Positions 56,087-59,203 of a stretch of 64,000 nt of DNA are shown in pieces. The stretch spans positions 2,976,001 through 3,040,000 of the forward strand of contig NZ_CP120468.1 in NCBI RefSeq assembly GCF_029490015.1. Direction: 5' to 3'. The stretch is from Halobaculum limi (GTDB lineage: Archaea; Halobacteriota; Halobacteria; Halobacteriales; Haloferacaceae). Positions within the stretch are counted from its first letter, which is position 1. Each line of letters starts with the position of its first letter. A program made the translations under genes and the position numbers. The notes beneath the pieces were generated by a model. That model had not been told where the DNA came from. It searched no databases and was given only the letters and a program-made list of their open reading frames with translations.

Positions 56087-56488
56087 TCAGAACGGCGCGT
56101 CCGGCCCTTCAGCAGACTCTGCGTCGCCGTTGGCTACCGGACCGTCAGCGTTGAGGGTCTCCGCGAGGTCACCGCGTTCTTCCAGTTCCGCGAGAATGTC
56201 GCTGCCGCCGACGAACTCCCCGTCAACGAACGTCTGCGGGATGGTCTCCCACCCGCTCTCGGCCTCCAGCGCCTCGCGGAAGGCCTCGAGGTTCTTGAGC
56301 GTGTCAACGGTTGCCACGTCCGAGCGGTACTGGCTGATCAGGCCGAATGCCCGCTTGGAGTAGCCGCACTGGGGCATCCGCGCGTCACCCTTCATAAACA
56401 GCACCACCTCGTGGTCGGCGATGGTGTCGGCGACGCGGTCGTGTGCCTCCTCGGCGTCGATTCCTTGGTCCATCGGGTCGAACGTCAT
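56087..56488 (-). CDS. Monothiol glutaredoxin (Grx4-type)
   Basis: 133 aa. Active site MPQCGYSKR with Cys41 (CGYS, compared with the canonical CGFS); TIPQTFVDGEFVGGSDI holds the cis-Pro and glutathione-binding elements. CGFS-type glutaredoxins bind and transfer Fe-S clusters. A disordered acidic tail of about 25 residues follows. Confidence 0.92.
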   Translation of the reverse strand: MTFDPMDQGIDAEEAHDRVADTIADHEVVLFMKGDARMPQCGYSKRAFGLISQYRSDVATVDTLKNLEAFREALEAESGWETIPQTFVDGEFVGGSDILAELEERGDLAETLNADGPVANGDAESAEGPDAPF

Positions 56489-56589: not shown

Positions 56590-56841
56590 TCACTCGGTCG
56601 CGTCGTTGGTGTCGCCGTGGCGGAGCAACGGCGAGTCGGCGTTTTCACACCCCTCGACGCCACAGACACCCGCGTCGTCGCCCGCACGCTCGACACCCGC
56701 GGAGAGATGTCCGATCTGCCAGTCGACGTCGTGGCTTGTCGCTCGTTCGTGGTCGGCGAGCGCCGTTCGGGCCGCCCGAAGCGACTCGAACACAGACTCG
56801 TACGCACAGTCCGTGCATCGAACGAGTACGTCGGCGTCCAT
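56590..56841 (-). CDS. Cys/His-rich small protein
   Basis: 83 aa from ATG 56841. CTDCAYESVF plus HERATSHDVDWQ make a C2H2-like site; CGVEGCEN near the C-terminus may bind a second zinc. Similar small haloarchaeal proteins exist (DUF7542-like, from memory). The function is unknown. Confidence 0.65.
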   Translation of the reverse strand: MDADVLVRCTDCAYESVFESLRAARTALADHERATSHDVDWQIGHLSAGVERAGDDAGVCGVEGCENADSPLLRHGDTNDATE

Positions 56842-56939: not shown

Positions 56940-58118
56940 TCAGAATCCGAACACGGGGACGTATCGGAAGGTGAGGTACGCACCGACCGTCGCGATGGCG
57001 GGGACGACGTTCTGCATCAGCACGACCCGTGCGGTCGTCGCAGGGTCGAACAGTTCCCCACCCTGCGGGATGCGGTCGGCGTCTTCCTCGCCGATCGGGG
57101 GGACGGGTTCTCCGGCCTCGTCGGCGGCCAGTGCGTCGACCGTGACGGGTGGCGTCTTGTCGTCGCGGACGGCGTCGGGAAGCGTCACCGTCCGCGTCGC
57201 TCGGCCCCAACCGAGGCCGATGATCGACACGGTGGCGATGATGACGAAACTCGCGGGGATGCCGAGTACCGAGAGGAACACGACGAGCGTCGAACTGATC
57301 GAGGCGACGACGATGGCGGCCGTCAGCGGCAGTTCCGTGATGTCGCTCCCCATCGTATCCAGCGTCCGCCGGGCGATAGTGAACGCACCGATGGCGACGG
57401 CCACACCGCCGAGGATGATCGCGGGGTTCATCGCGAGTTCGCCGCTGCCCACCAGCGGTGCGACCGCGTTGGCGATGTTCGAGGTGCCCGAACTGAACGC
57501 CATCAGACAGCCGATAGCGATGACCGTCACCGTCCCGCCCAGTTCCTTCCGGTTCGTCGTCTCGTGGAGTCGGGGCACCGGAATCGCGCCGGAGCGGTCG
57601 ACCACGAGTAATGGTCCTGAACTCCGGTCGATCGCGACCAGTCGATTGAGTCGCGCGTAGAAGTAGCGCCCAATGATGAGCGCCACCCAGAAGCCAATGA
57701 TCGGCGAGACCCCCCACCAGATGACGATCTCACCCATCACAGCGAAGTCGAGCACACCCCCAGCGAGCGCCAACCCCGCGATGGCACCCACGGCCGTCAT
57801 CGACGTCGAGGCGGGCACGCCGAAGACGTTGCCCACGAACAGCGCGATTCCGATGAAGAACAGCACCGCGATGGACGATTCGAGCGTGAAGATCCCCGGG
57901 TTGGTGACGAGTTCGGAGCCGAGTTTCGTGACGACGTTGCGACCGATCGTCCACGCGCCGAGGAAGAAGAACACCCCCATCAGCGCCGCCGCCGCGGTCT
58001 TCGAGATGGCGTCGGACCCCACGGCTGGCCCGAACGCCGGCCCGGTCGTCGACCCGCCGATGTTGTACGCCACGAACATCGAGATCAACACCCCGACGAC
58101 GAGCAGCAGTTCGACCAC
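56940..58118 (-). CDS. PiT-family inorganic phosphate transporter
   Basis: 392 aa from GTG 58118, about ten membrane helices. The PiT repeat signatures occur as VAYNIGGSTTGPAFGP, FGVPASTSMTAVGAIAG and MAFSSGTSNIANAVAPLVGSG. Takes up phosphate with a cation. Coupled to the upstream repeat-protein gene by a TAGTG overlap. Confidence 0.93.
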   Translation of the reverse strand: MVELLLVVGVLISMFVAYNIGGSTTGPAFGPAVGSDAISKTAAAALMGVFFFLGAWTIGRNVVTKLGSELVTNPGIFTLESSIAVLFFIGIALFVGNVFGVPASTSMTAVGAIAGLALAGGVLDFAVMGEIVIWWGVSPIIGFWVALIIGRYFYARLNRLVAIDRSSGPLLVVDRSGAIPVPRLHETTNRKELGGTVTVIAIGCLMAFSSGTSNIANAVAPLVGSGELAMNPAIILGGVAVAIGAFTIARRTLDTMGSDITELPLTAAIVVASISSTLVVFLSVLGIPASFVIIATVSIIGLGWGRATRTVTLPDAVRDDKTPPVTVDALAADEAGEPVPPIGEEDADRIPQGGELFDPATTARVVLMQNVVPAIATVGAYLTFRYVPVFGF

Positions 58119-59203
58119 TATTGCGCCTCCGCCGAGTCGGTCTCGGTGTCGTCGTCCGCGTCCGTGTCGTCGTCATCTGCGTCGTCGCTCGCGTCACCGT
58201 CTGCATCCTCGTCCGCCGACTCCTCCGCCCCGAGTCGTTCTTCGACGGTCTTCTCCACCGTCTCGTCGACCTTCTCTTCGACCGTCTCCTCGACCGTTTT
58301 CTCCACCGTCTCGCCGACTGTCTCCTCAACGGTCTTCTCGACGGTTTCTCCGACCGTTTCTTCGACTGTCTCCCCGACGGTCTCGTCGATCTTCTCTTCG
58401 ACGGTTTTCTCGACCGTCTCGTCGACGGTTTCCCCTACTGTTTCCTCGACCGTCTTCTCCACTGTCTCACCGACGGTCTCCTCGACGGTTTCGCCAACAG
58501 TCTCTTCGACCGTTTTCTCGACTGTCTCGCCAACCTTCTCTTCGACCGTCTCCTCGACCGTTTTCTCGACTGTCTCGCCAACCTTCTCTTCGACTGTCTC
58601 GTCGACCGTCTTCTCCACTGTCTCGCCGACCGTCTCCTCGACAGTTTCGCCAACGGTCTCTTCGACGGTCTTCTCCACCGTCTCGCCAACCTTCTCTTCG
58701 ACCGTCTCGTCTACCGTCTTGTCCACTGTCTCGTCCACTGTCTCCGAGACCGTCTTGTCTACCGTCTCCGCGACCGTCTTCTCCACTGTCTCACCGACCG
58801 TCTTGTCTACCGTCTCCGCGACCGTTTTCTCGACTGTCTCGCCGACTGTCTTGTCTACCGTCTCCGCGACGGTGTCTTCGACCGTTTTGTCCACAGTTTC
58901 TGCGACTGTCTTTTCAACAGTCTCACCGACCGTCTTATCGACCGTCTCGTCCACCGTCTCCTTGACCGTCTCGTCCACCGTCTCTTTGACTGTCTCGTCG
59001 ACTGTCTCCTTGACCGCCGTCGTCATCCAGTCGGGATCGAACCGGGCCATCTTCCACGCGACGTGAATCACGTACGAGACGAGGACACCGAACCCGAACG
59101 CGACGCCGACGGCGGTTTCGACGGTCAGAATTAGTCCGACAGAGACAGCGATCAACAGTCCGTACGTCAGGTCGACGATTGAGTCGACACGGCTCGGGTT
59201 CAT
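58118..59203 (-). CDS. Membrane-anchored protein of 65 tetrapeptide repeats
   Basis: 361 aa. Two N-terminal membrane helices (about 12-50), then 65 uninterrupted four-residue units from residue 65 to 324 of the form x-E/K-T-V (KETV, DETV, GETV, EKTV, AETV, DKTV, EETV, EEKV). An acidic Asp/Glu tail (325-361) ends it. A Val every fourth residue would place a slowly winding hydrophobic stripe along a very long helix or make a regular fibre. Its stop overlaps the start of the PiT transporter gene. Function unknown. Confidence 0.85.
   Translation of the reverse strand: MNPSRVDSIVDLTYGLLIAVSVGLILTVETAVGVAFGFGVLVSYVIHVAWKMARFDPDWMTTAVKETVDETVKETVDETVKETVDETVDKTVGETVEKTVAETVDKTVEDTVAETVDKTVGETVEKTVAETVDKTVGETVEKTVAETVDKTVSETVDETVDKTVDETVEEKVGETVEKTVEETVGETVEETVGETVEKTVDETVEEKVGETVEKTVEETVEEKVGETVEKTVEETVGETVEETVGETVEKTVEETVGETVDETVEKTVEEKIDETVGETVEETVGETVEKTVEETVGETVEKTVEETVEEKVDETVEKTVEERLGAEESADEDADGDASDDADDDDTDADDDTETDSAEAQ
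58230..59010. repeat. 12-base-period tandem coding repeat
   Basis: The tetrapeptide array is encoded by 65 degenerate 12-base units of the type GTCTCGTCGACC (plus strand). All frames are therefore open, producing long spurious ORFs on both strands. Such an array is prone to slippage and to length variation between strains. Confidence 0.85.

Follow-up and report, generated by a model that had tools for sequence, protein, structure and literature searches.

What does a membrane-anchored protein do whose length is mostly a run of four-residue units, and how is it related to the PiT-family transporter encoded immediately downstream? The window analyzed was a 64,000-nucleotide stretch of Halobaculum limi (contig NZ_CP120468.1), in which the two genes lie on the minus strand. 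Members of the protein family to which the repeat protein belongs are currently annotated as hypothetical.

The tetrad gene and its reading frame

The tetrad-protein gene (58118..59203, minus strand) is an ORF of 361 codons. Residues 1–62 (59018..59203, minus) constitute an N-terminal anchor having two predicted transmembrane helices (ca. 3–27 and 30–54) and the juxtamembrane motif WKMARFDPDWMT. The array follows at residues 64–323 (58235..59014, minus) as 65 consecutive V/I-x-[E/K]-[T/K] tetrads with no break of phase. The leading residue is V in 64 units and I in one, L324 comes directly after the array, and the distance from one V/I/L to the next is exactly four in 65 of 65 cases. The second column is mostly E, D, or G (Gly is present in 15 of 66 units), the third is E or K in 64 of 65 units and D in the other, and the fourth is T in 59, K in five, and R in one. 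The protein ends in an acidic tail (residues ca. 328–361; 58121..58222, minus), predicted to be unstructured, in which 19 of 34 residues are D or E. The array is strongly negative, 91 D/E being set against 27 K/R. The tetrad gene ends in a stop codon that shares one base with the GTG start of the PiT gene (..TAGTG..). The original prediction of an unbroken, strict four-residue array, a two-helix membrane anchor, an Asp-rich tail, and an overlap with the transporter start was accurate.

The array is under selection at the protein level. Among 66 units counted, 46 distinct 12-nt sequences were found, with the full set of four codons in use for both Val and Thr. Between units, pN/pS was 0.26 overall, 0.03 in the Val column, and 0.12 in the Thr column; in the two shifted sense frames across the array it was ca. 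1.3. One antisense frame that shares the codon boundaries likewise appears constrained. The minus frame is fixed because the anchor is conserved in 125 of the 170 genomes of the taxonomic family, not by openness alone. Slippage as the source of an artefactual array was rejected on the grounds of the pN/pS values and of conservation.

Three long ORFs run antisense to the array on the plus strand (57673-58965, 58121-59134, and 58146-59066); they were interpreted as shadows of the repeat. An automated annotation pipeline could choose them instead of the tetrad gene. As candidates for the true gene, they were rejected because the minus frame is fixed by the homology of the anchor, by the overlap with PiT, and by the family.

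A haloarchaeal family and its PiT neighbor

Besides the family-level count given above, homologues of the 62-residue anchor were found in 10 of the 11 genomes that represent the genus and, across the order, in 247 of 392 genomes, which cover 70 of 95 genera. When 84,980 species genomes were scanned, 22 relatives emerged, every one haloarchaeal. The invariant residues (P3, D7, D11, G15, A35, F36, G39, H47, W50, K51, M52, R54, F55, D56, P57, W59, and M60) concentrate in the anchor and its WKMxRFDPxWM motif. No significant match to the anchor was found in Pfam, NCBIfam, or PHROG, and the PHROG matches of the tetrad protein are confined to the repeat. A viral origin was discarded: phage records contained no anchor match, and viral contigs contained no confirmed relative. 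CdrL_M (PF24252) scored above its cut-off by composition, with no single stretch passing; identity with CdrL was rejected, as the RHH and DZR domains are absent, and the CdrL proper of the same genome is encoded at a separate locus and has no tetrads. The match to DUF445 (PF04286; 38.4 bits, cut-off 33.8) covers only repeat residues 63–316, leaves the anchor unmatched, and is probably compositional as well. With both cut-offs passed on the repeat alone, the family is at risk of automated mislabeling. The best match among solved structures (E = 0.004) was low-complexity and was not accepted as a relative. A search of open-access papers found none that deals with the tetrad family or with its haloarchaeal PiT.

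The transporter (56940..58118, minus; 392 aa) matches PF01384 at 137.5 bits (cut-off 33.7) and aligns with TmPiT (6l85). Both of its GANDVANA signatures are replaced: NIGGSTTGPAFG and SSGTSNIANA lie opposite IGANDVANS and HGANDVANA of TmPiT, and neither retains the conserved Asp. Its sole NCBIfam match is to the CysP sulfate permease (NF053884), at 157.9 bits against a cut-off of 400. The predicted phosphate transporter is supported by its PHO4 homology, but with the GANDVANA aspartates lost and a best NCBIfam model (CysP) that falls below its cut-off, phosphate is an unproven substrate. The genome contains four PHO4 genes, and all four of the encoded proteins (56940-58118, L077, L078, and L080) are without the first GANDVANA signature, having NIGGS.. 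or WAIGAGS.. instead. In the stretch that separates PiT from a glutaredoxin gene (56087-56488) is a small ORF (56590-56841, minus) with a CxxC and a CxxxxC pair.

The predicted coupling to a PiT-family gene was supported by comparison. In a sample of 106 homologue genes picked for breadth rather than at random, 84 had a PiT gene within 1.5 kb. The tetrad gene was immediately upstream and co-oriented in 56 of these, divergent in 23, and otherwise placed in five (one, L109, being a joining artefact); 28 of the 56 co-oriented upstream genes had a start/stop overlap. About 20 of the sampled homologues, in Halorubrum-like and in related and other genera, had no PiT nearby. When the PiT subtype was defined by a best E ≤ 1e-131 (ca. 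60–86% identity), it was present in 121 of the 125 family genomes with the anchor and in 6 of the 45 without it (Fisher p = 2e-27, uncorrected for phylogeny). The co-occurrence also holds where the two genes are apart (e.g. G118, G045, G056, and G017). In genera having both states (g1, g5, g8, g9, g20, g23, g26, and mostly g19), anchor and PiT subtype were present or absent together, which may reflect joint transfer in the adjacent cases. One genome, G132, has the tetrad protein and no PiT of this subtype. When the flanks of the four PHO4 genes of the H. limi genome were scanned for period 4, a tetrad gene was found only beside 56940-58118. Two loci (L129:2369-6620 and L130:3014-7386) each carry two tetrad genes on opposite strands, one short (117 aa) and one longer (194–199 aa), together with two PiT genes that lie between these or next to them.

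Periodicity and predicted structure of the array

The hydrophobicity spectrum of 101 homologues peaks at exactly 4.0 (4.93 vs. ca. 0.1 at 3.5–3.65, or about 40 times the power), and Val accounts for 92% of their unit-leading residues. Individual periods range from 3.76 to 4.01, with 39 homologues at 4.00; values near 3.75–3.85 were obtained for L113 and L129, and the divergent L051 (47% anchor identity) still has a period near 4. Hydrophobic residues every four positions were retained in all complete homologues examined. The longest strict run per homologue spans 5 to 67 positions (median 30), the 67 of the window protein including M60. Between close relatives, array indels comprise whole units, and tail indels are of arbitrary size: 30 of 36 gaps were multiples of four, and the six exceptions lay, by position, in the tail. 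Shorter relatives have a few tetrads, then ordinary heptad-like sequence, and then a conserved RVDRRPR motif. The original prediction had named PiT-adjacent homologues without any repeat as contrary evidence; the sample contained none, and even its shortest complete members have 5–8 tetrads that lead into ordinary coiled coil. Because repeat number varies from 5 to 66 units, it is unlikely that the array serves as a ruler.

The post-array motif, R-[VI]-[DE]-RRPR, is conserved in L042, L054, L124, and many other relatives and is missing from the window protein. At the end of the L052 array, the frame enters a lysine/serine/proline-rich sequence in a manner resembling a frameshift, either real or an assembly error.

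AlphaFold2 modeled the monomer with a mean pLDDT of 63.5 and a pTM of 0.32. The anchor was predicted as two helices (3–27 and 30–54; pLDDT 60–80), the array as helix throughout at low pLDDT (54–69), and the tail as unstructured (pLDDT under 50). Regarding the original suggestion of a long, rigid helix or fiber, the model thus favors the helix, at low confidence, but a rigid rod is plausible and unproven. Val, Thr, and Gly are poor helix formers, which counts against a helical array. Across the protein family, alternation of E with K at i, i+4 is more frequent than expected (549 observed vs. 392), and K-K pairs at this spacing are depleted (42 vs. 176), as expected for a helix. Compared to shuffled unit orders, the alternation has a z of ca. 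15–16 over the family and ca. 3 for the window protein. The 8-mer VGETVEKT has been duplicated, which contributes to the pattern, and such inheritance could explain it in part. Single alpha-helix rods of the ER/K type, whose residues are almost entirely charged, have the same i, i+4 alternation; in the window array, however, Val makes up a quarter of the residues and Thr most of another quarter.

On an ideal helix of 3.6 residues per turn, a four-residue stripe moves by 40 degrees per unit and completes a circle in nine units (ca. 54 Å). Coiled coils have been described with ca. 3.33 to 3.9 residues per turn; the local value of 3.8 in YadA is the most extreme case known, ca. 3.9 is the expected upper limit, and a period of 4.0 is said to be outside the accessible range (PMC4786415). 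A literature search on four-residue coiled-coil periods found nothing direct besides that paper. The window array is beyond the described range because its period is 4.00; some relatives (3.76–3.9) fall within it. The array resembles the right-handed hendecad (11/3) and pentadecad (15/4) coiled coils of the YadA stalk (PMC4786415) in placing hydrophobics four residues apart on a helix, and L113 and L129 resemble them in having periods near 3.75–3.85; the window array differs in holding four-residue spacings only. Alpha/beta coiled coils with beta-layers, which arise by insertions of two or six residues that give hexads or nonads (PMC4786415), also fall outside the ordinary periodicity range, but the window array is made solely of four-residue steps.

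Possible roles of the tetrad protein

The reading that we favor, and to which we would give about an even chance, is that the tetrad protein is an accessory membrane protein of one subtype of haloarchaeal PiT-family anion transporter and that copies of its cytoplasmic helix array associate with one another to form a rod. The conserved transmembrane hairpin would lie beside the transporter and contact it physically, with both ends probably cytoplasmic because of K51/R54 and R5. The V-x-[E/K]-T array would extend as a helix into the cytoplasm, where Val at every fourth residue would form a right-handed spiral stripe through which copies could pack into a rod or bundle. E and K at i, i+4 would form intrahelical salt bridges that fit the high-salt cytoplasm. 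Such a bundle may influence transport by oligomerizing or clustering the transporter, or by offering it to a partner. The length of the array would drift in whole units and would not itself be the message. The PiT linkage in two independent layouts (upstream co-oriented and divergent) argues for an accessory role; that about a fifth of the sampled homologues are away from PiT argues against it. A simple bundle is not guaranteed because the exact period of 4.0 exceeds the stated coiled-coil range (PMC4786415). A further proposal, tentative and rather doubtful, is that pure-tetrad arrays form an unprecedented, strongly right-handed helical supercoil of four-residue steps, with no three-residue step, that serves as the oligomerization rod of a PiT accessory subunit across the haloarchaea.

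Low AlphaFold2 confidence, the abundance of Val, Thr, and Gly, the large net negative charge, and the variable array length would also be consistent with a disordered acidic bristle, i.e. a membrane-tethered, extended, salt-soluble polyelectrolyte whose Val period stems merely from duplication of 12-nt units. We consider this unlikely: pN/pS in the Val column is 0.03, the array keeps its phase while the tail tolerates indels of any size, the period stays near 4 in divergent members such as L051, and charges alternate at i, i+4. The original prediction that the array might bind cations or phosphate at the membrane face found no indication in its favor. The array and tail are acidic, as such a buffer would be, but acidic protein surfaces are common to haloarchaea generally, the array contains no site-like pattern, and its E and K residues are mostly paired with each other; this role is highly improbable.

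Two other explanations concern the transporter itself. In other archaea, helical PhoU-like proteins (DUF47) are encoded with PiT and have been proposed to gate the transporter in response to a signal. By analogy, the tetrad protein could be a regulatory subunit that gates its neighbor according to cell phosphate or another signal, with the array transmitting or reporting that signal. Its position beside PiT, its co-occurrence with the PiT subtype, the conserved juxtamembrane motif, and the C-terminal RVDRRPR motif of many relatives are compatible with this idea. The tetrad protein differs, however, in being a membrane-anchored repeat rod with no DUF47/PhoU match and no ligand-binding domain, and the RVDRRPR motif is missing from the window protein, so we judge a regulatory subunit not likely. 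A function independent of PiT, with adjacency due to an inherited neighborhood or joint transfer, would accommodate the ca. 20 homologues that have no PiT within reach and the case of G132, but the two different adjacent layouts across genera and the near-complete co-occurrence render it decidedly improbable.

This analysis defines an unnamed protein family that is found in most of the haloarchaeal genera sampled and is tied to one PiT subtype. With homologues whose periods run from ca. 3.76 to exactly 4.0, the stated limit of coiled-coil geometry becomes testable on natural proteins.
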